A stretch of 53,979 nucleotides of DNA from Pseudomonadota bacterium (GTDB taxonomy: Bacteria; Pseudomonadota; Gammaproteobacteria; Acidiferrobacterales; UBA6901), in assembly GCA_027364845.1 (NCBI GenBank), contig DAHXOO010000017.1:1-53979 (forward strand), written 5' to 3'. Below, one piece after another: positions 22,314 through 49,882 of this stretch. The position numbers and the translations under genes were made by a program. The notes below the pieces were generated by a model that saw nothing but the letters and a program-made list of their open reading frames with translations, had not been told where the DNA came from and ran no database searches. The stretch's first letter is position 1. The number at the start of each line of letters is the position of its first letter.

Positions 22314-22639
22314 TCCGGCCGGTCCTTGGATTTGTCCTTGAGCCGCTTGCCCGATGCCCTTTCACGATGCCTGCCTTGCATCCTGGCCAGCTGCAAGGGG
22401 CTGATCGAAAGTTCCGGAATGAAGCTGTTCAGCTGCTCCAACGCCCCCAGCTCCCTCAGTACTGCGATGAGGGTGGATAGCTTCCCTCGTCCCGATTCAA
22501 GCGATTTAATGACATTGAGCGACAACGTCGTCGCCTCTGCCAGTGCGATCTGGGTCACGTTCTTGCGCAGGCGAAGCGCCCTGATACGGGCGCCAAGCTC
22601 AGCCTGTATCCCCCTGTCTGATAGTGAATATAAATCCAT
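22307..22639 (-). CDS. hipB: HipB-type antitoxin and repressor (XRE family)
   Basis: This 110-residue protein has an XRE/Cro helix-turn-helix (about residues 14-70: LGARIRALRLRKNVTQIALA then LSLNVIKSLESGRGKLSTLI). A basic, disordered tail (GRHRERASGKRLKDKSKDRP) follows. HipB neutralises HipA and represses the operon by binding palindromes upstream. The AT-rich region 22640-22830 contains suitable dyads. The gene lies directly before hipA with a 7-bp overlap. Confidence 0.9.
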   Translation of the reverse strand: MDLYSLSDRGIQAELGARIRALRLRKNVTQIALAEATTLSLNVIKSLESGRGKLSTLIAVLRELGALEQLNSFIPELSISPLQLARMQGRHRERASGKRLKDKSKDRPEW

Positions 22640-32440: not shown

Positions 32441-35400
32441 CTATGCGACCTGTCTCATCTTCCGCCTCATCATCCAAGACAAGGCGAGCAACCCGCTGGC
32501 GAACAGGGGCAGACTCGGGGGCACCGGCGTTGGGATCGGTGTAGCCGCGGTCACCTGCAAGTCAACTATGCCGCAGTCGCCGTCGTACAGCAGGCCCAGC
32601 TTGTCGCGGCCTCCGTTGATCAGAAGCGGAGCGCTCATGTCGGTGCCGGAGACTTCCGCGCCACTGCCGCTCACGCAGTTCGGGCCGGGGCAGTCGAACT
32701 CCAAGGTGGCGAACGCACCCGAGATATCCCCGTTGGCCGTCACCAAGCCGTAGTAAGTATCGCTCGAGCCAAAGGTAAAGCCATTGGTGAATGAACCCGT
32801 CAGTACGTCCAAAGTGCCATCGAGAGCGGCGGTTCCCGGCGAACCAGAGACATTAAGCCTGCCGTAGTTCCCGCTCATCGCAGTACCCGCGATCAACTCG
32901 CCCAACGTACCCGAGGAGGTTTGCGTGTAACTGCCGCTGATCAACATTGTGCCCGGCATCAGCGGCGAACCACCGTTGTTAGGGGTCAACGTCGAGCCAT
33001 TAACCACACCGCCCGAGGTCTTAAGGGTGCCGGAGAGCGTGCCTCCCGCGAGGTCGATTGTGCCCGAAACTGTCCCATTGCCGGAGAGCGTTCCACCCTG
33101 CAGGTCGATCGTGCCGGCAATAAGGGTGCCGTTGACAACGGTGCTACCGCCCGTCTGCGTGTACATCACCGGATCTATCGTACCGTTGGCATTTAACGTC
33201 ACGGTGCCTTGGTTGGTCATATTCCCATTCACGCTCAAAAAGCCGTTGTTCGTAAATGTGCCGCTATTGTTAGTTAAATTTCCGGTTACGGTCATGCTGC
33301 CGCTGCTGGAAATCGCGATGGTGCCTTCGTTGGAGAGATCGCGGTGCTTTCCGGCTTGGCTTAAACCTACATCGACGTTTCCGTAGTTTGCCACGTTAAG
33401 ATTGCTATTGGTTTGGATATCCATCCCCAAACTGTTGGAAACACTGGCCGCATCGGCATGAAGTTCTGCTTGGTTGCCAGAAGTGCCGCCAACAGTGGTT
33501 TGACCGCCGCTCGTTTGGACGAAAGCACCATTGGTCACGCGAAGCGCGCCATCGGCGGCAATGTCAATCGTACCGGAATTGCTCAGCCCCCCGGAGCCGG
33601 CCACGGTGATGTTGTCCAGGCTTGAATCAAATGTGGTTCCTTTTGTCGTGATCGTACCGGTATTGGTGAACAGACCGGCCTGCGAACTGCCGTTTGTAGA
33701 AACCTTCGCGCCGTTATCAACTTCCAGCGCGCCGGCATTGCTCGCGACGCTGGTGAGCGCACTGCTGCTGCCGGGGGCACCGCTCAGCTCAACAAAGGCG
33801 TTCGTTCCCGAAAGCGTCAAGCTGCCAGTGCTGGCAATGCTGGTGACGCTCGTGCCAAGCGCTAGGGCCGCCTGCGCACCTGAGCTCGGACCAGTAATCT
33901 TGACCGTGCCGTCCAGCGTTCCGCTGGTGACGAAGTCCTGCGCGGTCGCCATCGCGTTCGAGGTGATGCCGCTGTTGCCAACATTGAGCGTGCCGTTCGT
34001 ATTGTTCAGCGTTCCGGTGATCGTCAGGTTGCTGCCGCCGGAGCCGGTGGTGTCCACGTTTATCGCGCCTCCCACCGGATTTCCGCTTACCGTTATCGAA
34101 TTGCTAAAGTTGGCGGGCGCGCCGCTTGTGCCCACGGTGACGGAGCCGCCGCTTTCCAAGTGCAGGACCCCACCGTTGCTCATGTTGCCGGCGCTCGTTA
34201 GGGCGGCGCCGCTGGCTAACAGGTCAACCTGTCCGCCCTGATTGATGGTAGTTTTGTTGCCCACCGTCAATGTGTTGCCCGCGCCGATGGCGAGCGTGTA
34301 ATTGGTGGCGCTATTGGTGGCGTCGCTGGCCTCAACCGTCAGGCTCTTGATTCCGGTATTTTCGTTCAGTGTGACGGTGCCGCCGGTTCCTCCACCGACG
34401 ATGGTGTCCTGTTGACTGGTCGGCGCGCTGCCTTGCGACCAGTTGGTCTGGTCGTTCGAACCGGTCCAGTCGTCAGTGGTTCCGCCCCAGATATCGTTGG
34501 TCGAGATCTGGCTTACATCCAGGACGACAAGGCCTTGCGAGTTCTCATACTGCACATCGAGAGTCATGTTATTACCGATATCAAGCGGGCTCGTGCCGCC
34601 GCCGGTCACACCGTTATAGGCGAGCGTGGCGAACGTGCCGGAGAGGGCATTGGCTGGGAAATCGATAATGTCGAAGGTCTGCTTGTTCGCGAAAGTGAAG
34701 CCATCGAGTGTGGATATATCGAGTGTGCCGCCCAGTGTCAGCACACCCGTTACGTTGAGCACGCTGAATTGACCGGAGTTGGTTCCGCCGATGAGCTCAT
34801 TAAGCGTAGCGCCCGATTGATGGGTATAACTGCCGTTGATGGTCAGGGTACCGGGGTTAACGCCTTCGGGGCTGGCCTGCAACGTCCCAGCCACATTCAT
34901 TACATTCGCGGCAATCGTGCCCGTACCCTGCAGGGTACCGCCATTTATCGTAGCTCCGCCTGGCGCCGTCAAAGTGCCGCCAACGGTGGCGGTGCCGCCG
35001 CTTTGCGTATACGAGCCGGCACTTAGGCTCAGGTTCCCGCCGCTTGCAACTGTAGTGCTGCCGCCGTTCTGCGAATAGGAGACGCCGGTCACATTGAGTA
35101 CGCCAGTGCTGCCGATATCGACCGTGCCCGAATTGCTTGCGGTTCCATTTACCGTAAAGGACGCCGTCCCTCCCGCCAAACCCCCTAGATTGGTCGTTCC
35201 GGTGTTGGCAAACCCAGCTGCTGAAACCGTACTCGGTGAAGTAGCCCCTAGGTTAAGGCCGATATTGAAGGTCCCGCCGTTACTAACCAGCCCACCCACC
35301 GCCAACTTGCTACCGCCGCTACTCAGCGTGTCGTCCACGCCGACCGTGCCCGTACCGGCGATCGTGAAAGCACCGCCGGTGGCCACCGACGCTCCGCTCT

Positions 35401-38400
35401 CGAGTTCAAGCTGACCCGCGACGTTCGTCAGCCCGCTCAGCCCGCTGTTGTTGGCCACATTGTTGTTGAGGTTCACGAAGGAGTTGGCATCGTCCAAGTA
35501 CAGCGACGAACCCGGCGCGATAGCGTCAATGCCGTAAGTCAGCAGCAGCGCGGCGGTCGCACTGCCTGGACTGAAATCGCCGACGATGGCCACGCTGCCA
35601 TTGAGAGTGTTCGTCACGGTTCCGCCACTCGGCCCGCTATTAAAGGCAAACCCCTGCGCGCTCATCGAATCCGATGATGTGTCGCCCGGATACCCGATCT
35701 GGATTGTGCCACCGCCATTATCCAGCGTCCCGTTCACGCTCAGCGTGCCATTGCCGATATTGTTTCCGACGAAGATCTTGCCCGAGTTGGCGAGGTTAGT
35801 GGTGACGACGGATCCGATCGCGAGCTTCGCGCCATTGTCCACAGAAATGGTTCCCGAATTGGTGAGCGTAGCGATCACGTTGGTTCCAATGGCCACGCTG
35901 GCGCCGTCTTCCAGCGTGATTGCGCCCGCGTTGCTGGTAAGCCCGCTGAGCGCGTTATTGGTGAAGGGCGATGCCGTATTGGTGGTCAGAAAGGCATTCG
36001 AGTTCGCAAGCGTCAGCGAACCGGATGTCGCGATACCAGTGATTCCGGCGCCCAGCTCGAGCGCGGCCGCCGTCGTGCCCTTGGTCGGGTCCTGGCCCGT
36101 GATCGTCACGGCGCCGTCCAGGATATTCGAGCTCGAGCTCGTATCGAATGACGCCGCGCTTACCGTGGATGGAGCGCTGATGCCGGTGTTGCCAATATTA
36201 AGCGTACCGCCACTGTTGTCGAGCTCTCCGCTGATAGCCAAGGTGCTACCGCCGGTCGCCGGGGTGACTCCCAAGACCGCCGTGCTGGCCGGATCAATAT
36301 TGATCGCGCCGGTATTGGTTAGATTGGCCGGTGTCGCCGAAGTGCCGACGCTGACCGAGCCCCCTTGCCCGGCGGTACCACCTAGTCCCGACGTCGTGTT
36401 TTGTCCCAGCGTCAGTGTGCCCGCGTTGGACAGGGCACCGCCCACGTTTAATGCGGCGCCATTCGCCGTGACATCAATTTCGCCGCCCGCGTTGATATTC
36501 ACGGTATTGGTGATCGCCAGGGCATCGTTGATGCCGAGGGCGAGGTGGTAGGCGGAAGTCTTGCCCGGCTGTACCGTCAAACTCTGGACCGTGTCGCTGG
36601 CCTCGTTATACGTGACGGTGCCGCCGTTTCCGCCGCCGACGAGCACATCTTCGGTCGCCGTTGGCTTGGCTCCCGTGGACCAATTTGTGGGGTCATTCGC
36701 ACCGGTCCAATTGTCGGTGGCGCCTTGCCACGTGTCGAGCGACCCGACTTGCAGCGCCAGTTCGCCGCCGCCATTGTTGTAATTGACGGCGAGATCGAGG
36801 TTGTTGCCGATGCTGATCAGGCCGTTTCCGGGGCCGCTGCTCGTACCATACGTGAGCGTCGCGAAGGTACCCGAGAGCCCGTTGGGTGCGAAATTTACGA
36901 TGTCGAAGGTCTGGCCGGGCGCGAACGCGAAACTGTTGAGCGTGTTGACTTCCAGAGTGCCGTCCAGCGTGACCGACCCGGAAACGTTCAGCGCGCTGAC
37001 GTTCGCGCCGGGCGTCCCGGTTCCCGCGATGGCCTCCGCCAAAGTTCCCGTGGACGTTTGCGTGTAACCGCCGCTTATGTTCAGCACGCCGGGACTCGGA
37101 CTGCCCACCGGGTAATAACTGCCGCCCGCCACGAGGCCCGCGTTGATCACGTTGCCGTTAATCGTGCCATGCCCCTGAAGCACGCCGCCATTGATGTTGA
37201 CGGCCGGGGCCGTTAGCGTCCCGTCGACGTTCGTTGCCGCAAAACAGAGTGCTCCGCAGGTCTGCGTATAGGAATTGCCGCTGCCGGTGACGGTTAAATT
37301 GGCAAAGCTGCCTATGCTGGCCATGAGGACATTGGTGACATTTCCGCTGACCACCAAGCTGGCGCCATTGTTGGCCGAAGCGCCGGTCATTATCAGAATG
37401 CCGCTGTTGGCGAGTCCGCCCGCGCTCACGTTGGTGGCTGAAGTGAGGCCGCCGTTTCCGATGGTCAGCGTTCCGATGTTGCTGATCGTCCCGGAGACGG
37501 CCGCGCTGCTCCCGCCCGTGGCCGTACCCGCATCAACGTTCATCGTGCCCGCGGCTGAGTTCGTCAAATCCGCCGGCGTGGAAGGCGAGACGACGGCTAG
37601 CGTGCCACCGTTGGCCACGTTCAGCGTGCCTTCATTCGTCAACGCGCCGCCCGTGTTCAGCGAAGCGCCCGCCGCGGCCACGTCAATTGCGCCGCCTGAA
37701 TTGATCGTTACGGTTTTGGCCACGGCCAAGGCGTCGGAGGGACTAAAGCTGAGCGCGTAATCCGAGCTGGTTCCGGCGCCGATCGTAAGGCTGTCAATCG
37801 CCGCACTCGTTTGGTCGTAGGTGACCGTACCGCCGGCACCGGTCCCGATGGTAATGTCCTGGTAGCCCAGCGGCACGATGCTGTCCGACCATGCCGCGGC
37901 ATTGCTCCACGCACCCGAGGTTCCCTGCCAGCTCACGGCGGTCGGGGGCGGCGTTTCCAGAGTGAGCGCCACCTCCCCAAGAGAGTCCAGATAATCAGCG
38001 ACGATCCCTATCTGGGTCCCGCCTTCATTGATCACCAGCGGGCTACCGCCGGTGGTTTGCGCCGTCACGCAGCTAGGGCCGGGACACTCGTACTGGAGCG
38101 TGCTGAACGCGCCGGAAAGGGAGTTGGCCGGAAAATTGATGATGTCGAAGCTTTGGCCCACGTGGAATTGGAAATTGTTGATTGCGGCGATGTCTAGCGT
38201 GCCGCCGAGTGTCAGCTTCCCGACCGCCACGCCCGTCGTGAGCATACCGAACTGGCCGCCGCCGGTACCGCCGATGATCTCGCTCAGCGTCCCGCCGGCC
38301 CCCTGGTTATAGCTGCCGGCGATTGAAAGCGCGCCGGGCTTGAGGCCGTCGGGGCTCGCCTGCAATGTCCCGGCGACGTTCGATACATCGGCACCAAGGT

Positions 38401-38656
38401 AGCCCACCCCTCGCAGCGTGCCGCCGTTGAGCGCAACCCCGCCGGAATTGATCAAAATACCGTTGACGGTGGTCGTGCCGCCGCTTTGCGTGTAGGCATT
38501 CGCGCCGGTCACGTTAATCTCGGCGCCGCTCGCTATGCTGACCGTGCCCGAATTGCTCGCGGCGCCATTGACGGTGAAGGTCACGCCGGTCGAATACCCG
38601 CCTCCGATCACCGCCGTGCCGCTGTTGTTAAAACCGCTGGCACTCGCGATACTCAT
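32441..38656 (-). CDS. Giant beta-strand-repeat protein, C-terminal part with PEP-CTERM-like tail
   Basis: This 2071-residue stretch is the 3' part of one 5432-codon frame that also includes 38726-48739; the two are in the same reading frame and separated by a TGA at 38726-38728 and 23 open codons. It lacks a signal peptide, and the ATG at 38656 has no ribosome binding site, so it is unlikely to be made on its own. It consists of short repeats such as NSGTLNIG, YTQSGGTTTVNGTL and QTFDIVNFPANSLSG, grouped in modules that open with Trp motifs at 37936, 36736 and 34495. It ends PVPPSLPLFASGLLALSWMM and RRKMR: a variant PEP-CTERM signal (proline-rich motif, hydrophobic helix, basic end) for exosortase sorting. 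No cognate exosortase is in the window. Confidence 0.8.
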   Translation of the reverse strand: MSIASASGFNNSGTAVIGGGYSTGVTFTVNGAASNSGTVSIASGAEINVTGANAYTQSGGTTTVNGILINSGGVALNGGTLRGVGYLGADVSNVAGTLQASPDGLKPGALSIAGSYNQGAGGTLSEIIGGTGGGQFGMLTTGVAVGKLTLGGTLDIAAINNFQFHVGQSFDIINFPANSLSGAFSTLQYECPGPSCVTAQTTGGSPLVINEGGTQIGIVADYLDSLGEVALTLETPPPTAVSWQGTSGAWSNAAAWSDSIVPLGYQDITIGTGAGGTVTYDQTSAAIDSLTIGAGTSSDYALSFSPSDALAVAKTVTINSGGAIDVAAAGASLNTGGALTNEGTLNVANGGTLAVVSPSTPADLTNSAAGTMNVDAGTATGGSSAAVSGTISNIGTLTIGNGGLTSATNVSAGGLANSGILIMTGASANNGASLVVSGNVTNVLMASIGSFANLTVTGSGNSYTQTCGALCFAATNVDGTLTAPAVNINGGVLQGHGTINGNVINAGLVAGGSYYPVGSPSPGVLNISGGYTQTSTGTLAEAIAGTGTPGANVSALNVSGSVTLDGTLEVNTLNSFAFAPGQTFDIVNFAPNGLSGTFATLTYGTSSGPGNGLISIGNNLDLAVNYNNGGGELALQVGSLDTWQGATDNWTGANDPTNWSTGAKPTATEDVLVGGGNGGTVTYNEASDTVQSLTVQPGKTSAYHLALGINDALAITNTVNINAGGEIDVTANGAALNVGGALSNAGTLTLGQNTTSGLGGTAGQGGSVSVGTSATPANLTNTGAINIDPASTAVLGVTPATGGSTLAISGELDNSGGTLNIGNTGISAPSTVSAASFDTSSSSNILDGAVTITGQDPTKGTTAAALELGAGITGIATSGSLTLANSNAFLTTNTASPFTNNALSGLTSNAGAITLEDGASVAIGTNVIATLTNSGTISVDNGAKLAIGSVVTTNLANSGKIFVGNNIGNGTLSVNGTLDNGGGTIQIGYPGDTSSDSMSAQGFAFNSGPSGGTVTNTLNGSVAIVGDFSPGSATAALLLTYGIDAIAPGSSLYLDDANSFVNLNNNVANNSGLSGLTNVAGQLELESGASVATGGAFTIAGTGTVGVDDTLSSGGSKLAVGGLVSNGGTFNIGLNLGATSPSTVSAAGFANTGTTNLGGLAGGTASFTVNGTASNSGTVDIGSTGVLNVTGVSYSQNGGSTTVASGGNLSLSAGSYTQSGGTATVGGTLTAPGGATINGGTLQGTGTIAANVMNVAGTLQASPEGVNPGTLTINGSYTHQSGATLNELIGGTNSGQFSVLNVTGVLTLGGTLDISTLDGFTFANKQTFDIIDFPANALSGTFATLAYNGVTGGGTSPLDIGNNMTLDVQYENSQGLVVLDVSQISTNDIWGGTTDDWTGSNDQTNWSQGSAPTSQQDTIVGGGTGGTVTLNENTGIKSLTVEASDATNSATNYTLAIGAGNTLTVGNKTTINQGGQVDLLASGAALTSAGNMSNGGVLHLESGGSVTVGTSGAPANFSNSITVSGNPVGGAINVDTTGSGGSNLTITGTLNNTNGTLNVGNSGITSNAMATAQDFVTSGTLDGTVKITGPSSGAQAALALGTSVTSIASTGSLTLSGTNAFVELSGAPGSSSALTSVASNAGALEVDNGAKVSTNGSSQAGLFTNTGTITTKGTTFDSSLDNITVAGSGGLSNSGTIDIAADGALRVTNGAFVQTSGGQTTVGGTSGNQAELHADAASVSNSLGMDIQTNSNLNVANYGNVDVGLSQAGKHRDLSNEGTIAISSSGSMTVTGNLTNNSGTFTNNGFLSVNGNMTNQGTVTLNANGTIDPVMYTQTGGSTVVNGTLIAGTIDLQGGTLSGNGTVSGTIDLAGGTLSGTLKTSGGVVNGSTLTPNNGGSPLMPGTMLISGSYTQTSSGTLGELIAGTAMSGNYGRLNVSGSPGTAALDGTLDVLTGSFTNGFTFGSSDTYYGLVTANGDISGAFATLEFDCPGPNCVSGSGAEVSGTDMSAPLLINGGRDKLGLLYDGDCGIVDLQVTAATPIPTPVPPSLPLFASGLLALSWMMRRKMRQVA

Positions 38657-38725
38657 AATGGCAGGCGGCGTACCAAGCCCGAAGCCGCCGCTGCCGAGCG
38701 CGAACGTTCCGCTATTGTTCAGCGT

Positions 38726-38728
38726 TCA
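38726..38728 (-). other. In-frame TGA interrupting the giant gene
   Basis: On the minus strand the sequence around the stop reads STLAVN, TGA, TLNNSGTFALG. Equivalent repeats elsewhere in the same protein read LSVNGTLDNGGG and KLAVGGLVSNGG, so the lost codon was probably GGA (Gly) and one G-to-T change made the stop. No frame change occurs across it. Confidence 0.8.
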
Positions 38729-41700
38729 GTTCACTGCCAGGGTGCTGCCGCCGCCGGTAAGCAAAAATTCGTCCACCCCCACCGTGCCGGTGCTGGCGAT
38801 ATTAAGATCACCGTTGGTACTCAGCTGCGAACCATTCTCGAGCTGCAGGCTGCCCGCAACGTTCGTCAGTCCCGTCAGGGCGCTGTTGCTGCCAAACGCG
38901 CCACTCAGGTTTACCTGAGAATTCGCGTCGAGCAGCAGGAGGTCCGAGTTTGCCGCGATGCCGGTGATGCCGTTTTGCAGTTCGATCGTCGCCGCTGCCC
39001 CGCCGGCAGTGTCACTGCCGACGACATGAACCACGCCGGTAAGCGTGTTGCCGGCGAACCCGGCCGCGCTCAAGGTGGCCGACGAGGTGACGCCGGTATT
39101 GCCGACGGTGATCTGGCCGCCCGTATCGCTCAGCGTCCCGCTAATGTTGAGCGTGCTACCGCCCGCGAGCGCCGTGTCCAGAATGATCGTGCCGCGATTG
39201 TCAAAGCTCCTGGGTTCCGAAGCGGTGCCAATGCTTGCCACGCCGCCACTCTCCAAATGCAGCGTGCCGGCGTTGGTGAAGTCGCCGCCAGCGGTCAGCA
39301 CTGCACCGCCAGCTTCGACATCGATCTCAGCGCCCGTACCGACGTTTACCGTGCCGGCCGTCGTTAATGTTTCGGAGGGGTTGATCGCCAGCGTATACCC
39401 GGAGCTGCTGCCCGCCTCCATGTTCAGGTTGTAGACGCTGGCGGTCTGGTCCAGCGTCACCGTGCCACCGGTCCCGGTGCCGATGTTCACGAGTTGCGTA
39501 GGGCCGGGAACGCCGCCGGACCAGTCCGCGCCTACGCTCCAATTCCCCGAGACCCCCGTCCAATTGTCCGGCGTCACCACATCGAGCAGGACCTGGCCGC
39601 TCGAACCCTCGTACGCCAGCGCCAGAGCCAGGTTGCCGCCGAGGTTAAGCAGGCCGGTGCCGCTGATGCTCTGGCCGTTGTACTGCAGGGTATCGAACGT
39701 GCCCGAAAGCCCGTTCGGGGCAAGATTCATGATGTCGAATGACTCATTGGCCCCGAATGCGAAGCCATTCACCGTGCTCACGTTCAGCGCGCCGGCAAGC
39801 GCCGCCGGGCCGGAAATATCAATCGCGCCGAACTTGGTGCCGCGCGTGCTGGCCCCCTGCACGATTTCGTTCAGCGACGCCGCGGACGTTTGGGTATAGC
39901 CGCCGTTAATCGTCAGCAGGCCTGGGGCGGAGGGTCCGGTGGCGCCCGCGACCGCCGCCGCGTTCGTCACGTTGCCGTTGATCAGGCCGTTGCCCTGCAG
40001 CAATCCGCCATTGATGTTGACCGCCAGCGCCGTCAGGGTGCCTTCCACCAGCGTCGTTGCGGAGGCGCCGCTCTGCGTATAGGCATTGCCGCTGCCAGTA
40101 ATGGTCAGGCTGCCCGTCGGAGCTGCAGAGATGCCGACTTCACCGGCGTTGCTCAACCCGGCCACGCTGAGATTGCCGGCGCTCAGTCCCACGAATGATC
40201 CTTGGAAAAACCTTCCTCCGACGCCAAGACTTCCGCTGGCAGCGTTGGTAAAGAAGCCGGAGACGTTCGCGGTGTCACCGATATCAAGCATGCCGGTGTT
40301 GTTTGCCGCACCATTGATAGTCGTCGCGCCAAACACACCCCCGTCTGCAAGCATGACCCCGGTATTGGACAAACTGGCAGCGCTCAAAACACCCGTTCCG
40401 ACGACGATCCCGGCGCTACCCAAAGAGATATTCCCGCCGCTATTGATCAGCGCGCCGCCAACCGTCAGACGGCCGCCCGAGTCGATATCGATAGTGCCCG
40501 TGTTAGCCAAGTCCAGGCCGGCGTTGGTCGCGATCGATGGGCCATACACATCTAGATTGCCGCCGTTGTTGGCCAGGGTGTTGAACGCGCTGTTGTTCAA
40601 GCTGTTGTTCGGCGCAAGGCTGGTTGCGTTTATAGACGCGCTGGCGCCGATCAGCGTGACATAGACGCCCTGCGCGATGTTGGTGATCCCTGGGCCGGCG
40701 TATTCGAGCTCCGAGTTGCCGGAAAGAGAGTAGTCGCCGGCGTTCAGGGCGCCTCCCGCCGGCACAAAGGAACCTGCGGGACCGGTCACGTCGAGCAGGG
40801 CTTGCGCCGTGCAGCCCGCCGCCGCGCAACCGGAAAGCGTTATGCGGCCACTGTTGGCCAGGCCCACAACATTCAGCGTCGTGGCCAGGTCGCTATATGC
40901 TGAAGTTGCGCTGTTGAAGAAAGTGGTCTCGAGGAAAATTCCAAACGGATTGCCGCTCTGATCGAAGCCACTCGCGCTGCTTGACAGCGCACCATTAATG
41001 GTCGCACTTGCCCCCGCCGCCAAAATCAATCGGCCATCACTGGCAATGCTGGTCAGTCCGCTGAGTCCGTCGTTGGTGAAATTGCTCGTGTCGGTGGTGA
41101 TAAACGAGTTGGCGTTAGCCAGCGTGAGCGTTCCGTCAATGCTGGTGATACTCGTGCCAAGTTGAAGCACGGCCGGCGTGGAGCCGACCCCCGGATTCTC
41201 GCCGGCAATGTCTATCGAGCCACCCAGCGCATTGGCCAGCGTGGTCGTGCCGGAGGTCGTGCTGAGCGAGGCCGCGCTCACCGTGGACTGAGACGTGATG
41301 CCGTCGTTGCCGATCACGACCGAGCCGGTGTTATTCAGAATCCCGCTGATAGCAAGGCTGCCGCCGCCCGTCGAACTGCCGCTGTGATTAAATAATCCCT
41401 GGTCGACGACTACTCCGCCCTTGTTGACGAAGTTTGCCGGCGCCGAGTTTGAGCCGACCGTGACCACCCCGCCGTTGGCCAAATAGAGTAAGGACGAATT
41501 GGTGAAGTCGCCGCCGCTCGTCAGGGAGGCGCCGCTCGCTTCAAGCGATATTACCTGGGAGTTGCTGACCACCTTTGTCACGTTCAGTGTGTCGCCTGCA
41601 TCAATGCCGAGAACGTATAACGCGCTGCCACTGTTGCTCGTACCCGGCTCGACGGTCAGGCTGTTGATCGTGGAGGCGGCCACATTGTACGTTACCGTGC

Positions 41701-44700
41701 CGCCGGATCCGGTACCGACAAATACGTCCTGCGCGGGGGTCGGGGTCGCACCGGTCGACCAGTTGACGCCGTTACTCCAGACGTCGGTGTTCCCGATCCA
41801 GTTATCGAACGTCGTCGGACCCTGGGCACTCACATCCAGCAGCACCTCGCCGGTCGAATTCTGGTACACCACGGCGAGCGCCAGACCCCCGCCAATATCC
41901 AGCGGGCTTGTGCCGCTGCCGCTGGCCGCGAGATTGTTGTATTCGAGCGTACTGAAAGCGCCGGTGAGTCCGCCGGGGCTGAAATTCATCAGGTCATAGC
42001 TTTGATTGGCGGCGAACGAAAAGCCATTCAGCGTAGTCACGTCCAGCGCGCCGCCCAGGCTGACCGAGCCGGAAACATTGATCGCGTTGTAGCTTGTGCC
42101 GCGCGTGACCCCATTCTGTACCAACTCGTCCAGCACCCCTGCGGAGGTCTGCGTGTAATTGCCGTTGATCGTCAGCAGGCCGGGAGCGGGAGAGTAAGCG
42201 GCAGCGTTGGTTGCGACAATTGTGGCTCCGTTCACCACATTGCCGGTGATCGTGCCGTTGCCTTGCAGCACCCCGCCGTTGAGGTTCACCGCAGGCGCGG
42301 TCAGGACGCCTCCGACAGTCGTCAACGCCAGCGGGCCGCTCTGCGTGTAGGAGTTGCCGCTGCCAGTCACCGTCAAGGTGCCGGGAGTATAGAAGCTGCC
42401 ATTGCCGGCGGCGATATTAACCGTACCGGTGTTGTTGAACCCCGCCGCGCTGATAAGGCTGGTGGCAGTGCCCGCCCCCTGGCCTATACCCAGCAGGCCG
42501 GTGTTGGTGTTTGTAAACGCTCCGGTGGCGCTGAGCTGCCCGCCCGAATAAATACCGATCGTCCCGGAATTCGTTACGCCACCGCTCAGGGTAGCGTAAC
42601 CGCTGATTGCCGCTGTGCCGCTGTTCACCAGCCCGGTTGCGGTGACCGTTCCACTGTCATAGCCGTTATTGATTTCCAGCCCGCAATTAGTCTGTGCGTT
42701 AGGGGTAGCGCACGCCTGCCCCGAGAGGTTGGAGGCGTTTGTCAATATCCCGCCAACATTCAACGCGCCAGCGTCCAACGTAGGCGGCGAAAACGCGCCG
42801 TTGTACACCTCGTCGCCTGACACCGAAATCTGGCCCGTATTGAGCACATTGCCGGTCGTGCTTACCACGGCGCCGTTCAGAACCACTATCCCGGCGTTTG
42901 ACGCGAGGGTACTGAGTGCGTTGTTTGTTCCCGTTCCCAAGCCGGTTGCGGTGATCGAAGAATTCGAGTCTCGGAGATAAACCGTAGTCCCGCTGGGAAT
43001 GCTGGTAATTCCCGGCCCGGTGTACTCGAGTTGGCCGCCATACTCGATACCGTAATATCCCGAACTGAGTGCGCCCGAGGTGGAGACGAACGGGTTCGTC
43101 GCCGCAACTCCGGTTATGTCGAGCAATGCGGTGGTGCTTGTGCCGCCCGAGATCAACACGTAACCGTTGTTGCTGAACCCCGCCGCGGTCAGCGTGGCGC
43201 CAAGGTCGATAACTCCACTGTTCACGAGCGTGCCGCCGACTGTGAGATCGGTGGCCGGGTTTCCAGACGTTGCGGCACCGCCCATTTGAATCTCGCCCGT
43301 GTTCGTCAAATCGAGCCCGGGATTGGTCGCAAGCGATACACCCCCGTTTAATTCCATGAGGCCCGCGTTGCTGGCCAGCGTGTTGAACGCGCTGTTGGTC
43401 GAGCCGTTATTGGGCGTGAGGTTTGTCGCTTCTATCGAGGCATTAGAGCCATTCAAGTCCAGCCAGACGCCCGTTCCGAGGGACGTGATGCCTGGGCCTG
43501 AGTACGCAATCTCGGTGTTGCCGTCAAGCTGATAGGTGCCCTGATTTAAGGCGCCCGAAGCGGGAATGAAAGACCCTGCCGGGCCGGTCACGTTCAGGAG
43601 GCCCTGCCCGGTGCAGCCCGCAGTAAGGCAGCCGGAAAGCTCTATTGCGCCGAGGTTGGTGAGGCCCGCCACATTCACCGTTCCGGAGCTTCCCACAATC
43701 AGGTCGCCACCTTCGATGATCAGGGCACCGCCGATTGTTAACGTGCTCCCGCCCTGGCCCCCGGTATCCACTTCCAGGCTGCCGTTGCTGATGAGATTGA
43801 GGCCGGCGTTGGTTTGGACCTGCGCGCCATCGGAGAGGATGACGCGGCCGTCGTTCCTGGCCAGCGTATTGAGCGCGCTGTTCCCCCCTGAGGGGGTGTT
43901 GGGGGTCAGGCTCGTGTCGTTAATTGAAGTATTCGCGCCGTCGAGCAATACCACCTGATTGCCGATGCCGCTGATTCCCGGCCCGGAGTACTTGATCTGC
44001 GCGTCCCCTTCGAGAGAATAGTTCCCGGCATCGAGCGCTCCGGAGGCGGGTAGCCACGTGCCGGCAATGTTCAGCACGGCCGGGACGTTGGCCGGTTGAA
44101 AAAACTGGGTCGACGCACCCCAGACCGTCAGCTCTCCGGTGTTGATGAGATTTCCGGCGTTGACCGTGGACGGCGACGTCAGCACAGAGTTGCCTATCTG
44201 TGCAGTGCCGGCATTATTGAGCGTCCCCGAAACCGTGAGCGTCGTACCACCACGGCTCGACAGGTTGTCGATATTCAGCGTTGCGTCCTGGTAATTCGTA
44301 AGATTACCGCTGATAACCGACGGACCGGCCGCCACGAAATTCGCCGTATTCGCCGTGCTGCCGAAGACAACATATCCCCCAGCAGGCAGGCCATTGATGA
44401 AATCTCCCGCTACGGTGAGCGTGGCCCCATTTTGCACGCTGAGCGTACCAGCATTGGTGAGAATCCCGCCCCCACCCACGTTCAACGCGGCACCGTTGGC
44501 CGCGTTCAGCGTGCCGACATTGGTGAGGTTGCCGTTGCTGCCACCTTGACCGGTAGCCAGGGTGTCGCCGCCGTTTTCGATGTCGATTTCGCCGCCGGCC
44601 GCGATGTTGGCGCTCGCATTTGCGGTCAGGTCTTCGCTGGCCGCGCCGAAGGAAAGCGTATAGCCGTTGGTAACCGTTAACGTGTTGACCGCAACCGGGC

Positions 44701-47700
44701 TCACACCGGCATCCAGCGTTACGATCCCGCCCGTCGAGTTGCCGATGGTCACATCGGAGATGGGGGCGGGAATCGCGCCGGCCGACCAGGCCGATGTGTC
44801 GGCCGTGCTACAGGTCCCGGCGCCGGTGTTCCAGATGTCCGCCGTTGCGGAGGGCACAAAGCTGCCCACACTCAGCACCACGTCGTTGCTGTTGTAGGTG
44901 AGGTCGAGCGCCAGTCCGCCGCCAATATTCAGCATGGGCCCGCTGGCGAGCTGGCCCTTGTATTCCAAGCCGCTGAAAGCGCCGGAAACGGTTCCCGTGG
45001 TGGAGGTGACATCGAGGATGTCGAAAGTTTGGCCCTGGGTGAACGTAAACCCGGACGGCGTGCCGATATCCAGTGCCCCTGTCAGAATGGCGTTGCCGTG
45101 GACATTCAAGGAACTGAACTGGCCGTTGGAGATTCCGTTGACGACCTGATACAGCGCCCCGGTTCCCGCTTGGGTGTAATTCCCGTTAATCGCCAGGCCG
45201 CTGGCAGTACTGGTAATGCCGCCCTCCATCGCGCCCCGGTTCAGGACGTTGCCGTTGATAGTCCCTGCGCCCTGAAGCATGCCACTATCGACATTGACCG
45301 TGGCTGCCGTCAGCGTGCCGGTAACAGTCGTTGTTCCTCCTCCGCTACCCGCAATCTGCGTGTAGGAACCGCCGCCGGCGACCGCAAGCGTCGCGAAGTT
45401 GCCGCCGAAACCGATACTGGGGCTGCCGACATTTACGCCCCCCAAGGTGCTGACGTTGCCGTGCACCGCCAGCGTCGCCGTATGGCCGGCGGTAGCGCCG
45501 ACGAGATTGATCGTGCCGGTATTATTTAGCCCCACCGCAGTGACCGCGGCCGTCGAGGACCCGATGTTTCCCGAATTCGAAATTTGCATGACGCCGTTGT
45601 TGTCGAGCACCCCGCCGATATTCAGGCTCGTACTGCCGGACGTGAGCGCGCCCGCGTCAACCGTGATCGTATCGTCATTGGTAAGATCGAGGCCTGGATT
45701 CGTACTGACGTTGACGCCATCCTGGATCGTGAATGTACCGGCGTTACTCGCAAGCCCGCTCAAGCCATTGTTGCTCAAAGGCGAGGTGCCGCTGAGGGCC
45801 ACATAGGAATTGGAATTAGAAAGGGTAAGCGAACCGTGGTAGCTGATGCTTGTGATCCCATTGCCGAGTATCAGCGCCGCGGTGTTCGAGCCGCTGCCCG
45901 GGTTCTCACCGGCCACGGAGACACTAGCCGTCAAGGCATTGAGGGCAAAGCCCGCGGCGCTGAGCGTGCTCGACGACGTGATGCCTGTGTTGCCCACGGT
46001 GAGTGCGCCGCCGTTCACGTTCTCGATCGTTCCGCCAATACTCAGGCTGCTGCCGCCGCTGCCCATATTCGGCGCGTCCACGTTTACCCCGCCGCTGTTA
46101 ACGAAATTCAGTCCCGCGCTGGTGCTCACCGTAGCGCCGTTTCCAAGTGTCAGCGACCCGCCGTTATCCGAAAGCCCGGTGAGCGCGCTATTGCTCGATG
46201 TGCCTCCTGCCAGCCCTACGCGCGCATTGGATCCGTACAACGTGAGGCTGCCGCTGCCGCCGCCCAGGACACCGGCAATGGTCGTAATCCCGCCGCTTCC
46301 ATATTCGAGCAGCGCGTCATTGGAGACGGAATAATTGCCGATAAGCGTGCCCGGGGCCGCGCCCGCGACATTCAGCGTGGTCTGTACGTTGGCGGCGCCC
46401 GTCAACACAATGGAAGCGTTGCCAGGCCCGGGTGTCGAGACGCTCCCGTCGTTGATGAGCGGCCCGTTCACCGTTACCGTCGTCGGGTTCGTGATGTTGC
46501 TGTTTCCTATAAAAAGGGCCGCGCTGTAGCTGTTCGTAACTGCTCCACCGAAACTGACGGTGCTCCCGCCCTGCCCGCTTGAATCCAGTTCCATCACGCC
46601 GCTGTTGGTGAGATTCAAGCCGGCATTTGTACCCAACGAACCGCCATTGCTCAGGTCAAATTGGCCGGCGTTAGCGGCCAGCGTATTCAAGGCACTGTTG
46701 GTGCCGGACGCCGCGTTGGGAGCAAGATTGGTCGCATTGATCGAGGCGTTGGCGCCATTAAGGTTGACCGTGACGCCGTTGCCGATGGCGGCGATGCCCG
46801 GGCCGAGGTACTCGATCTCGGCGTCATTCGTCAAATTGTAGGTACCCGAAGTGAGCGCCCCGGACGCCGGTAAGAACGGATTTGCAAATTCCTGTGCCGT
46901 AACGTCAAGCAGGGCCTGCGTACCCGATGACCCCGTAATGTTCAGGGTCCCGTAATTGCTGAAGAAAACGGAGGTGACGGTGGTCGGCTTCGTAATCGCG
47001 CTGTTGCCGATATTGAAGGTTGCGCCCTGGCCGTTTTGCAGCATGCCGCCGATACCCACGGTGCTTCCGCCCGCTTGCGTCTGGTCCACGTCCACCGTGC
47101 CGGTATTGAGGAAATTAATGCCGGAATCGGTGCTCACTGATGCGCCATTCGCCAGCTCGAACGTGCCCGCATTACCGGCCAGGGTGTTGAGCGCGCTGTT
47201 GACGCCCGAGCCGGTATTTGGCATAAGACTGGTCGCATTGATCGAAGCACCGGAGCCATTGAGATTGACCGTAACACCCGCGCCGACGCCGCTGATGCCC
47301 GGCCCGCTATACTCGAGTTCGGCGTCGTTGGTGAGGTTATAAATACCCGCGTTCACAACCGCCGGCGGCTGCAGGAACGGATTGGCGGATGCCGATCCGG
47401 TCAGGTCGAGCAGGGCCCGGGCCGTAGGAGAGCCGGTGATGTTCACCGTGCCGAAGTTATTCAGTCCCGCGGCAGTTATCTCGGTCGGCTGGGTAAGGCC
47501 GCTGTTGCCAAGATTGAGCGTGCCGTTGCTGCCACTTAGGCTTATAGTGTCCGGCCCGATGCTGAGCGACGTGCCGGTGTTGCTAATCACGCCCGTTACG
47601 CTAAGCGTGCTCCCGCCGCTGTAAAGCTTACCGCCGCTACTGTCACCGCTTGAGTCCACATTGGTAGTGCCAAAATTGCCGTAATTTCCGGCAATGGACA

Positions 47701-48739
47701 GCAACGCGCCCGATAGTAAGTTAACCGTACCCGAATTGACGGCAGGAAAGGGTTGGGCTGGAATGCCGTTGTTAAACGCCACGCCGGTTATGTCGAGCGT
47801 AGCGGGCACGTTCGACGTTCCGGTGACGTTGCCGTGCACGTTCAGAGTACCCGTGTTCACCAGCGCCCCGACGCTTGCCGTCGCCGCGCTCGTGATATTC
47901 CCGTTGCCGCTCCCGATATTGACGTTACTGGTGTTCGTCAGCGTGCCGCCAATGCTCAGGGTACTGCCGCCGGTTGGCGTCGGGCTGTTGTCCACGTTGG
48001 TGGTCCCGGAGTTACTGTAATCTCCGGCAATCGACAGCACAGCGCCACCGGTCAGATTAACGTTGCCGCCACTACTGTTGACCCCCGCGCCGCTGATGCT
48101 TAGCGTCGTCACTACAGTAGAGACAGTATCGCTCCCCGCCAAATTCAGAGTGCCGGTGTTATTGAGCGAACCGGCGCCTGCGGTCACGGCGCTGGTGATG
48201 CTGCTGCTCCCGATGTTGGCTATGCCGGCGTTGGTTAGCGCTCCGCCGGCCGTCAGTGTCGAACCGCTTGCAAGCCCAAGGGTGCCGCCGGAGTTGATCG
48301 TCAACGCGCCGCTGGCGGTCAGCACCGAGCCATTTGAAAGCGCGAGGGTACCGCCGGAGTTGATCGTTACGGTGCCGTTAGTGCCGCTTCCGGCCTGCAC
48401 GGTGAGCGTGAAGGCCCCCAACGTAAGGATGTTACCGGAATTCAGGATCAAGTCGCCGATGGTGGCGTTGATGTCGAGCGTGACGTTGCCCGTCGAAGTG
48501 TTCCCGATGGTGACGACATCGGTATCGCTATTCGGAATGCTGGTCGTCGACCAAAAACTGGCGTTGTCCCAGTTTCCCGTTCCGCCAATCCAGTTGATGG
48601 CATTTTGCGCTGCGGCGGATGGAGCAAGCGCGAGCGCTCCTGCCGTGAAGAGGGCGAATGCGAGTGCCCGCACGGAAACTTTGCGTGTTCCCGCTCTATG
48701 GGACTCTACGGGCGGGAAAACTATTGCAACGCGGCGCAT
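38726..48739 (-). CDS. Giant secreted beta-strand-repeat protein, N-terminal part
   Basis: This 3337-residue frame starts with a long signal peptide (MRRVAIVFPPVES, then a hydrophobic core and a PSAAAQ cleavage site near residue 45). The mature part is almost cysteine-free, rich in Gly, Ser, Thr, Asn, and built from repeats of the autotransporter-associated beta-strand type (for example INSGGTLALSNGS, NTGTVNI, YTQSG, GTFDTLQYNG). Module openings with Trp motifs lie at 48595, 44839, 41807 and 39568. The product is probably a long beta-solenoid exported by Sec. It stops at a TGA in mid-repeat; the same frame continues for another 2094 codons (32441-38725). Without that part it would lack the PEP-CTERM tail. 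The start has no ribosome binding site; a leader ORF lies 18 bp upstream. Confidence 0.85.
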   Translation of the reverse strand: MRRVAIVFPPVESHRAGTRKVSVRALAFALFTAGALALAPSAAAQNAINWIGGTGNWDNASFWSTTSIPNSDTDVVTIGNTSTGNVTLDINATIGDLILNSGNILTLGAFTLTVQAGSGTNGTVTINSGGTLALSNGSVLTASGALTINSGGTLGLASGSTLTAGGALTNAGIANIGSSSITSAVTAGAGSLNNTGTLNLAGSDTVSTVVTTLSISGAGVNSSGGNVNLTGGAVLSIAGDYSNSGTTNVDNSPTPTGGSTLSIGGTLTNTSNVNIGSGNGNITSAATASVGALVNTGTLNVHGNVTGTSNVPATLDITGVAFNNGIPAQPFPAVNSGTVNLLSGALLSIAGNYGNFGTTNVDSSGDSSGGKLYSGGSTLSVTGVISNTGTSLSIGPDTISLSGSNGTLNLGNSGLTQPTEITAAGLNNFGTVNITGSPTARALLDLTGSASANPFLQPPAVVNAGIYNLTNDAELEYSGPGISGVGAGVTVNLNGSGASINATSLMPNTGSGVNSALNTLAGNAGTFELANGASVSTDSGINFLNTGTVDVDQTQAGGSTVGIGGMLQNGQGATFNIGNSAITKPTTVTSVFFSNYGTLNITGSSGTQALLDVTAQEFANPFLPASGALTSGTYNLTNDAEIEYLGPGIAAIGNGVTVNLNGANASINATNLAPNAASGTNSALNTLAANAGQFDLSNGGSLGTNAGLNLTNSGVMELDSSGQGGSTVSFGGAVTNSYSAALFIGNSNITNPTTVTVNGPLINDGSVSTPGPGNASIVLTGAANVQTTLNVAGAAPGTLIGNYSVSNDALLEYGSGGITTIAGVLGGGSGSLTLYGSNARVGLAGGTSSNSALTGLSDNGGSLTLGNGATVSTSAGLNFVNSGGVNVDAPNMGSGGSSLSIGGTIENVNGGALTVGNTGITSSSTLSAAGFALNALTASVSVAGENPGSGSNTAALILGNGITSISYHGSLTLSNSNSYVALSGTSPLSNNGLSGLASNAGTFTIQDGVNVSTNPGLDLTNDDTITVDAGALTSGSTSLNIGGVLDNNGVMQISNSGNIGSSTAAVTAVGLNNTGTINLVGATAGHTATLAVHGNVSTLGGVNVGSPSIGFGGNFATLAVAGGGSYTQIAGSGGGTTTVTGTLTAATVNVDSGMLQGAGTINGNVLNRGAMEGGITSTASGLAINGNYTQAGTGALYQVVNGISNGQFSSLNVHGNAILTGALDIGTPSGFTFTQGQTFDILDVTSTTGTVSGAFSGLEYKGQLASGPMLNIGGGLALDLTYNSNDVVLSVGSFVPSATADIWNTGAGTCSTADTSAWSAGAIPAPISDVTIGNSTGGIVTLDAGVSPVAVNTLTVTNGYTLSFGAASEDLTANASANIAAGGEIDIENGGDTLATGQGGSNGNLTNVGTLNAANGAALNVGGGGILTNAGTLSVQNGATLTVAGDFINGLPAGGYVVFGSTANTANFVAAGPSVISGNLTNYQDATLNIDNLSSRGGTTLTVSGTLNNAGTAQIGNSVLTSPSTVNAGNLINTGELTVWGASTQFFQPANVPAVLNIAGTWLPASGALDAGNYSLEGDAQIKYSGPGISGIGNQVVLLDGANTSINDTSLTPNTPSGGNSALNTLARNDGRVILSDGAQVQTNAGLNLISNGSLEVDTGGQGGSTLTIGGALIIEGGDLIVGSSGTVNVAGLTNLGAIELSGCLTAGCTGQGLLNVTGPAGSFIPASGALNQGTYQLDGNTEIAYSGPGITSLGTGVWLDLNGSNASIEATNLTPNNGSTNSAFNTLASNAGLMELNGGVSLATNPGLDLTNTGEIQMGGAATSGNPATDLTVGGTLVNSGVIDLGATLTAAGFSNNGYVLISGGTSTTALLDITGVAATNPFVSTSGALSSGYYGIEYGGQLEYTGPGITSIPSGTTVYLRDSNSSITATGLGTGTNNALSTLASNAGIVVLNGAVVSTTGNVLNTGQISVSGDEVYNGAFSPPTLDAGALNVGGILTNASNLSGQACATPNAQTNCGLEINNGYDSGTVTATGLVNSGTAAISGYATLSGGVTNSGTIGIYSGGQLSATGAFTNTNTGLLGIGQGAGTATSLISAAGFNNTGTVNIAAGNGSFYTPGTLTVTGSGNSYTQSGPLALTTVGGVLTAPAVNLNGGVLQGNGTITGNVVNGATIVATNAAAYSPAPGLLTINGNYTQTSAGVLDELVQNGVTRGTSYNAINVSGSVSLGGALDVTTLNGFSFAANQSYDLMNFSPGGLTGAFSTLEYNNLAASGSGTSPLDIGGGLALAVVYQNSTGEVLLDVSAQGPTTFDNWIGNTDVWSNGVNWSTGATPTPAQDVFVGTGSGGTVTYNVAASTINSLTVEPGTSNSGSALYVLGIDAGDTLNVTKVVSNSQVISLEASGASLTSGGDFTNSSLLYLANGGVVTVGSNSAPANFVNKGGVVVDQGLFNHSGSSTGGGSLAISGILNNTGSVVIGNDGITSQSTVSAASLSTTSGTTTLANALGGSIDIAGENPGVGSTPAVLQLGTSITSIDGTLTLANANSFITTDTSNFTNDGLSGLTSIASDGRLILAAGASATINGALSSSASGFDQSGNPFGIFLETTFFNSATSAYSDLATTLNVVGLANSGRITLSGCAAAGCTAQALLDVTGPAGSFVPAGGALNAGDYSLSGNSELEYAGPGITNIAQGVYVTLIGASASINATSLAPNNSLNNSAFNTLANNGGNLDVYGPSIATNAGLDLANTGTIDIDSGGRLTVGGALINSGGNISLGSAGIVVGTGVLSAASLSNTGVMLADGGVFGATTINGAANNTGMLDIGDTANVSGFFTNAASGSLGVGGRFFQGSFVGLSAGNLSVAGLSNAGEVGISAAPTGSLTITGSGNAYTQSGASATTLVEGTLTALAVNINGGLLQGNGLINGNVTNAAAVAGATGPSAPGLLTINGGYTQTSAASLNEIVQGASTRGTKFGAIDISGPAALAGALNVSTVNGFAFGANESFDIMNLAPNGLSGTFDTLQYNGQSISGTGLLNLGGNLALALAYEGSSGQVLLDVVTPDNWTGVSGNWSVGADWSGGVPGPTQLVNIGTGTGGTVTLDQTASVYNLNMEAGSSSGYTLAINPSETLTTAGTVNVGTGAEIDVEAGGAVLTAGGDFTNAGTLHLESGGVASIGTASEPRSFDNRGTIILDTALAGGSTLNISGTLSDTGGQITVGNTGVTSSATLSAAGFAGNTLTGVVHVVGSDTAGGAAATIELQNGITGIAANSDLLLLDANSQVNLSGAFGSNSALTGLTNVAGSLQLENGSQLSTNGDLNIASTGTVGVDEFLLTGGGSTLAVN

Positions 48740-48757: not shown

Positions 48758-48838
48758 TTAAGTCAGTGTCATGGCCGCTAAGATCGGAACCGCGCGCCAA
48801 GCCACCACCCTGGTCACCCACGTCATCAGTGTTTTCAT
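48758..48838 (-). CDS. Possible 26-residue leader peptide upstream of the giant gene
   Basis: A 26-codon ORF starts MKTLMTWVTRVVAW and ends at a TAA 18 bp before the giant gene's ATG. It has a near-perfect GGAGG six bases upstream of its start, while the giant gene has none. Two readings are possible: a translated leader coupling ribosomes into the giant gene, or the N-terminal scrap of a lost secreted protein, since it looks like the start of a signal peptide. Neither can be decided here. Confidence 0.35.
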   Translation of the reverse strand: MKTLMTWVTRVVAWRAVPILAAMTLT

Positions 48839-48939: not shown

Positions 48940-49048
48940 TTAACAACGGGCCAACCACCTTTTGGCTGTGGCGCTCTTAGGTCGGGCGCAAACAGCGAGC
49001 CCGAGGAGGCCCGAGACGAAGAGCCATAACGCCGGCGGCAGCGGCACA
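48940..49048 (-). pseudogene. Out-of-frame PEP-CTERM (VPLPA) tail of the upstream gene
   Basis: In the frame ending at the TAA at 48940 the minus strand reads VPLPPALWLFVSGLLGLAV followed by CARPKSATAKR, a textbook VPLPA/PEP-CTERM sorting tail. The main frame of the gene (48977-49882) misses it by one base. Removing one base from the run of five G at 49049-49053 (plus strand) would join YAAP directly to VPLPP. Confidence 0.75.
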
Positions 49049-49882
49049 GGGGGCAGCGTAGTTGTAGCCGCTGGTACTTGAGACGGTGACGCCGGAATAC
49101 AGTCCAGTGAGGGTGATCGAGGGATCGATCGCGAGCGGCGCAGTAAGGGAGGGATCTGAATAATTTGTCGCAGTGATTTCTGCAATGTAGGCGACCTGGC
49201 CGCTCGTCAGGTCGCCAAGTGTGACGGGAACCGAAAAAGTAGAAGTGCCGGGGGAAAAAAGAGTAGGGCCATATGTGGATTGACTGAGTAGCCCGGTACA
49301 GGAAGATATTCCTCCACAGTCAAAAGGCGATCCCGAATATGACGACTGACCAAAGCTACCCGTATTGTATAGATCCAGACTATAGCCCGCGTACCCGGCC
49401 GCACCATATGTGGCTGTTCCTATCGAACCCGTAATGGTCATGGTGAGGGTGCCGAGAACGGTATTGGTATTAATAGTACCGCCGGTGGGCAAATTCCCCA
49501 GAGTCAGCGTGTCCCACATTTCGGCGGTACCGCCAGTACTACCATTACTCCCCGTGAGGCTCAGGCTGAGCTGATCACTGGCAAGGCTGGCCGTCGCGCT
49601 AGCGGAAGCGTAAGGGGACGCAGGGTCGGAGATGGTGTTCGTTTGACCCAAAATTCCGTCAGTGTAGTAGAACCCCGAGGGCGAACTGTAGCCGCCAACA
49701 GCCGTTCCTCCGTCGTAATAGGTGTCTGAAATGTACGTCCCTTCGGTAATCGCGGAGGACGCAAACGCCGACGTTCCCGCTCCCAGGGTTCCCGCCAACA
49801 GCGACCCACTCAAAAAAAGCACCCAGAGGAAGCGATGGGTCGTGCCGGGCGCGCGGTGAAGCTGGACTTGTAGGTATTTCAT
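48977..49882 (-). CDS. Secreted protein, PEP-CTERM type, tail lost by frameshift
   Basis: The 301-residue frame starts MKYLQVQLHRAPGTTHRFLW, a signal peptide with a long n-region and a hydrophobic core ending SAFASS near residue 42. The mature part is Ser, Thr, Gly and Tyr rich (GGTAVGGYSSPSGFYYTDG, GSTGGTAEMWDTLTLGNLPT) with two cysteines (FDCGGISSCTG), as is common in PEP-CTERM proteins. After NYAAP the frame is lost and a different tail (CAAAAGVMALRLG) is read, whereas the adjacent frame gives a perfect VPLPA tail ending at 48940. The ATG at 49882 follows AAAGGGGGATCC; a longer frame to 49915 is less likely. Confidence 0.75.
   Translation of the reverse strand: MKYLQVQLHRAPGTTHRFLWVLFLSGSLLAGTLGAGTSAFASSAITEGTYISDTYYDGGTAVGGYSSPSGFYYTDGILGQTNTISDPASPYASASATASLASDQLSLSLTGSNGSTGGTAEMWDTLTLGNLPTGGTINTNTVLGTLTMTITGSIGTATYGAAGYAGYSLDLYNTGSFGQSSYSGSPFDCGGISSCTGLLSQSTYGPTLFSPGTSTFSVPVTLGDLTSGQVAYIAEITATNYSDPSLTAPLAIDPSITLTGLYSGVTVSSTSGYNYAAPCAAAAGVMALRLGPPRARCLRPT

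Follow-up and report, generated by a model that had tools for sequence, protein, structure and literature searches.

Giant genes are described as strain-specific in a passage of PMC11573180 that cites Reva and Tummler (2008). In-frame stops are reported to occur in many bacterial genes and usually not to persist for long, and the case is made that a good number of them are read through (Belinky 2021; PMC7918605, in the excerpt cited here). Assembly errors have been found to account for many pseudogenes with internal stops (Cooley and Wright 2024; PMC11017572, likewise as excerpted). A further described class with features in common with the locus reported here is that of the exoproteins sorted by PEP-CTERM signals and exosortases.

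Here, we analyze a giant gene in the window, the 53,979-nucleotide stretch of DNA that forms contig C88 of a 3.15-Mb draft genome (184 contigs, 96% completeness). Like the giant repeat-built surface proteins of environmental bacteria (giant genes, Reva and Tummler 2008; huge proteins, PMC11573180), it has more than 5000 codons, a secreted-looking and repetitive product, and no ortholog in the relatives searched, but it is interrupted by one stop codon. With the single in-frame-stop genes of the two excerpts (PMC7918605, PMC11017572) it shares one stop in an otherwise intact frame, and it differs from them in being known from one genome only. It resembles PEP-CTERM/exosortase-sorted exoproteins in its signal-peptide-like N-terminus (by eye), its type of C-terminal tail, and the presence of an exosortase in the genome, whereas its tail scores under the curated cut-offs and is severed from the start of the protein by a TGA. 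The most likely reading, at somewhat better than even chances, is in our view that a giant adhesin-like gene, which only this genome was seen to carry, has recently suffered a genuine nonsense lesion. On balance, the interruption is more probably an everyday mutation or an assembly error than a novel kind of decoding.

Frame and repeats across the stop

The minus strand from 48739 to 32441 is a single frame of 3337 codons, a TGA and 2094 open codons (ORF list and translation; Table 1), which agrees with the 5432 codons counted in a preliminary description of this DNA. The ORFs at 38726–48739 (3337 aa) and 32441–38656 (2071 aa) are both on the minus strand and share this frame, and the first ATG 3' of the TGA comes after 23 open codons, so that the earlier account of two ORFs in one frame, split by one TGA and 23 codons, is borne out by the coordinates. 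In 1500-base steps across the stop, the GC content is 0.51–0.58 at codon position 1, 0.54–0.58 at position 2 and 0.70–0.80 at position 3, and is alike on either side of the TGA. No second stop or frameshift was found in the 6285 bp 3' of the TGA or elsewhere in the 16.3-kb gene; together with the even codon-position GC, this upholds the claim that frame and composition are otherwise intact over 16.3 kb.

Stops flanked on each side by 300 or more open codons of the same frame number three in 156 kb of stretches from the same genome and none in 128 kb of sister stretches. The giant-gene TGA is one of the three (3341 and 2094 flanking open codons). Another, at 12545 (420 and 537 open codons), lies between two cytochrome-oxidase-like ORFs and is, by eye, an ordinary gene end; the last is in another stretch of the genome, L086 (720 and 497 open codons). 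Neighboring ORFs in the same frame are by themselves little proof of one gene, and the alignment of repeats across the stop is the stronger point.

Self-comparison revealed that the giant protein consists of diverged repeats. Residues 3271–3404, around the stop, align to residues 4417–4544 of the same protein with 52% identity, running straight across the stop and taking in 134 of the 141 residues centered on it (query 4–137), and many weaker repeat copies likewise align across it. The 30-base context of the stop is single copy in the genome. Using a simple motif for the local strand-turn, we counted 26 occurrences in the giant protein, one of which is the stop; the others carry glycine in 21 cases and aspartate, alanine, lysine and asparagine in one each. 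This fits the earlier proposal, made from sister repeats, of a glycine codon (GGA) at the TGA. Because a repeat unit spans the stop, other copies have glycine at the site, and codon-position GC is even, 48739–32441 is, as judged from its sequence, one gene that was broken once.

Table 1. Features of the giant gene and its upstream neighbors (window coordinates)
Feature	Coordinates	Strand	Description
Giant gene, 5' part	38726..48739	-	Start, signal-peptide-like N-terminus (by eye) and repeats; 3337 codons up to the in-frame TGA
In-frame TGA	38726..38728	-	Inside a repeat unit; glycine in 21/25 other motif occurrences
Giant gene, 3' part	32441..38725	-	2094 open codons, same repeats, PEP-CTERM-like tail, terminal stop
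PEP-CTERM-like C-terminal tail	32444..32530	-	Scores under curated cut-offs
Small secreted-protein gene, adjacent upstream of the giant gene	48977..49882	-	Frame leaves the sorting tail; carries one base that the L071 and L072 paralogs lack
VPLPA-CTERM-like tail of the small gene	48943..49056	-	Out of the main frame; TIGR03370 21 bits, cut-off 25.35
26-codon ORF	48758..48838	-	GGAGG-type ribosome site (by eye); in the giant gene's frame, ends just before its ATG

Predicted fold and sorting signals

We modeled a read-through piece of 467 residues with AlphaFold2, using five other stretches of the same giant gene as alignment input. The model is a chain of short strands with a mean pLDDT of 74.3 and a pTM of 0.78; ten-residue blocks over residues 1–350 have pLDDT values of 71–96, except for three at 58–63, and the model is poor past roughly residue 350. 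The stop corresponds to residue 225 of the piece and falls in a predicted strand. A Foldseek search with this model returned nothing at E ≤ 0.001, and the TM score to the query was at most 0.30 among the best 50 of 54 matches, but several of the best matches belong to the beta-helix class, such as the passenger domains of antigen 43 and TibA, so that the likeness to these proteins is one of fold class. The Fil_haemagg profile (PF05594) reaches 18.2 bits on one stretch of the giant protein, below its cut-off of 21.5. The predicted structure suggests a beta-solenoid.

Against TIGR02595 (cut-off 16), the C-terminus scores 15.8 bits as a 29-aa tail and 13.4 bits as a 59-aa tail; the scores are 8.9 bits for TIGR03370 (cut-off 25.35) and 16.2 bits for PF07589 (cut-off 20.7). 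The C-terminal signal is PEP-CTERM-like only, below the curated cut-off. The N-terminus looks like a signal peptide by eye and, with the TGA, is on a different polypeptide from the tail, while the 3' part starts mid-repeat and has no signal peptide, again by eye. The preliminary description had placed a signal peptide in the first part and a PEP-CTERM-like tail in the second; both likenesses stand, but scores below the TIGR02595 and PF07589 cut-offs do not establish a true PEP-CTERM signal.

The same genome encodes an exosortase on contig C33 (PF09721, 238.2 bits, above cut-off). A loose profile search (E ≤ 1) yielded 10 VPLPA-like tails in this genome, 3 of them above cut-off; at this setting 5 of 14 control genomes were hit as well, in no case above cut-off. 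Six of the 10 tail-bearing genes look intact, one appears to run off its contig, the one on C163 is a remnant, and in two (the small gene in the window and one gene on C114) the tail lies in a different frame from the upstream part; a paralog of the small gene on C100, which is not among the 10, looks intact. Sister species carry large VPLPA-CTERM repeat proteins in open frames, one of 1383 aa in G002 (L074) and one of 1402 aa in G004 (L081). The former is weakly similar to the giant protein (best E 8e-6), mainly through a small module near the N-terminus in which 54 residues align at 35%; the latter gave no match at 1e-3 and is alike by eye only.

Search for relatives

DNA across the stop, searched in 96 genomes including its own, matched 5 of the 95 others, each over only 23–65 bases; the genus has 4 further genomes in this set, and none of them was matched. 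The protein across the stop was found in 1 of 57 genomes of the order, its own, and in none of the 56 others. Weaker signals came from the C-terminal 219 residues, which have weak matches in 3 of the 56 other order genomes, and from the 275 residues after the stop, which have weak matches in 5 of 273 other genomes of the class (274 genomes were sampled from a larger group); the open frames that hold these matches range from 158 to 3104 codons, and some are other large proteins. A search of genome contigs identified one Pirellulales locus at 38% identity, and a plasmid search gave no match. The check proposed earlier, finding the intact gene in sister genomes, turned up neither an intact gene nor any copy at all (4 genus genomes by DNA, 56 order genomes by protein). 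As no orthologous copy was found, the ancestral codon is read from the internal repeats only. Absence of orthologs is the usual pattern for giant genes, according to the passage of PMC11573180 cited above.

Origin of the stop codon

In the reading that we favor, the giant gene would encode a surface protein that is secreted, built from repeats, probably folded as a beta-solenoid and closed by a PEP-CTERM-like tail; the bacterium has an exosortase, and one recent nonsense change would have split the gene. Translation of the allele with the TGA would stop after 3337 residues. The signal peptide would still direct export of this product, but with the final 2094 residues and the sorting tail missing it would be released, degraded or non-functional. 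The 3' half, with no signal peptide discernible by eye, would not be exported even if translation restarted. We infer that the base at the TGA is real, that the product is exported, and that anchoring is lost. The locus looks like a case of variable surface genes being lost, because the neighboring sorted-protein gene also looks broken.

The intact remainder of the gene bears on the age of such a lesion. Random substitutions make a stop in 523 of 30033 cases upstream of the TGA and in 360 of 18846 downstream (1.7–1.9%). With no second lesion in the 6285 bp 3' of the TGA, at most about 157 (2.5%), 57 (0.9%), 35 (0.55%) or 20 (0.3%) neutral substitutions would have accumulated there since the stop arose (95% upper limits), assuming indel/substitution ratios of 0, 0.05, 0.1 or 0.2, respectively. 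The absence of further damage is weak dating, and is compatible with a recent lesion, with an error and with continued use alike. The preliminary description had left a choice between a recent change, an assembly error and occasional readthrough. Of these, a recent or artefactual lesion is supported, and readthrough is less likely.

The main rival, to which we give an appreciable though clearly smaller probability, is that the gene is intact in the organism and that the TGA is a wrong base, or the base of a minority strain, in the contig. The draft state of the genome in 184 contigs and the repetitive nature of the gene favor such a consensus error, as do two more sorted-protein genes of this assembly that appear to carry one-base lesions and the attribution of many internal-stop pseudogenes to assembly errors in the excerpt of PMC11017572. 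However, with stops arising from so small a share of random substitutions, one error that left a stop as the sole visible damage would imply a high error rate or bad luck. In addition, no broken frame was seen among the core-type ORFs of the window or the long ORFs of L071, in an unsystematic inspection by eye.

We regard it as unlikely that near-cognate tRNA-Trp decodes the stop some of the time, so that the main form is secreted and a minor one is full-length and anchored. Stops without other damage are argued to be poor pseudogene markers in the excerpt of PMC7918605, and here the 2094 codons 3' of the stop are without decay. The tRNA-Trp has a 5-bp anticodon stem and a 7-base loop and looks canonical by eye (a fold program drew another structure), so the mechanism given for a 4-bp-stem tRNA-Trp, as set out in the cited part of PMC13092985, does not apply. 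Among 34 tRNA matches, an incomplete set without, for example, tRNA-Ile and tRNA-Tyr, none besides tRNA-Sec has a UCA anticodon, which counts against readthrough, as do RNA folds 3' of the stop that are no better than shuffles and a stop that is conserved in no relative, no relative being found among the 56 other order genomes. Since the tRNA set is incomplete, a suppressor tRNA could lie in missing sequence. The base after the TGA is an A, in readthrough's favor; UGA-A is a leaky context in E. coli, and by this analogy some background Trp readthrough is likely. Considerably less probable is that the TGA is a maintained leaky switch, with mostly a released 3337-residue rod and an occasional 5432-residue exosortase-sorted form, and with the adjacent sorted protein varied likewise by slippage before its tail.

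An ATG 23 codons 3' of the stop would allow two separate genes that share one frame by chance, but this is very improbable because the repeat unit runs across the stop and the second part begins mid-repeat without a signal peptide (by eye). Least probable of all is that UGA is read as selenocysteine: tRNA-Sec and SelB (472.5 bits, above cut-off) are side by side on contig C151, so that this organism may use UGA as a Sec codon, but RNA folding at and downstream of this stop does not surpass that of shuffled sequences (z 0.86, −0.21, −0.81), no Rfam match occurs within 501 bases up to E 10, and cysteine occupies the site in none of the 25 other motif occurrences. The SECIS-like hairpin was sought after the UGA by general methods (folding against shuffles, and Rfam) rather than by a dedicated bacterial predictor, and was not found. 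The tRNA-Sec lies at 808–904 (−) of L123 and adjoins a full-length SelB gene (L124); the SelB match in the sister G002 (L125) is divided between two frames. The programmed readings of the TGA tested here are not supported. A UGA-recoded genome was rejected: catalase-, OxyR-, patatin- and P-type-ATPase-like ORFs in the window end in TGA, so the genetic code is standard (we take the patatin assignment from Pfam and presume the other three names by eye).

Neighboring genes and other lesions

The main frame of the small secreted-protein gene upstream of the giant gene reads past its own tail, which is in another frame, and paralogs on C100 and C163 are without the extra base at the frameshift point. 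This gene, which the preliminary description did not mention, appears from its sequence to be disrupted by a single base immediately ahead of its VPLPA-CTERM-like tail. Two adjacent sorted-protein genes thus appear to be severed from their tails by one base each. Were it true that both neighbors lose their tails by separate one-base changes in living populations, this would suggest changing selection on surface anchoring itself. The giant gene is in any case a clear example for caution over a single in-frame stop in a draft genome, and an example of giant, sparsely distributed surface genes coming and going.

Elsewhere in the genome, a sorted-protein gene on C114 (19072–19967; about 5073–5968 of L088, +) is split between two frames before a VPLPA-CTERM-like tail. 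A frame-tracking HMM reported no event in 200 kb of this genome or in 200 kb of G004, and it left the known stop of the giant gene unflagged too. Shadow frames swamped a tblastn survey for lesions against ORFs of sister genomes, which reached about 36 kb of 451 kb (overlapping stretches included), and both surveys were set aside as uninformative. A concentration of lesions in the sorted-protein genes of this genome is thus no more than an impression.

In G002, a relative of the small gene adjoins a large VPLPA-CTERM gene; in G003, one adjoins a similar gene whose start lies at the end of a contig. We do not claim common ancestry for the pair of small and large genes, the intergenic DNA not being alignable with the window. 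The catalase–OxyR side of the window aligns to contig C26 of G003 at 85%, and no giant gene was seen in the first 8 kb of that contig. Two in-frame stops lie between the 26-codon ORF, whose ribosome site looks strong by eye, and the ATG of the giant gene, which has no clear ribosome site of its own by eye. Elsewhere in the window, a HipA-like gene (Pfam) at 21003–22639 (−) is preceded by a small helix-turn-helix-like ORF just upstream (by eye), an arrangement of the toxin-antitoxin type.
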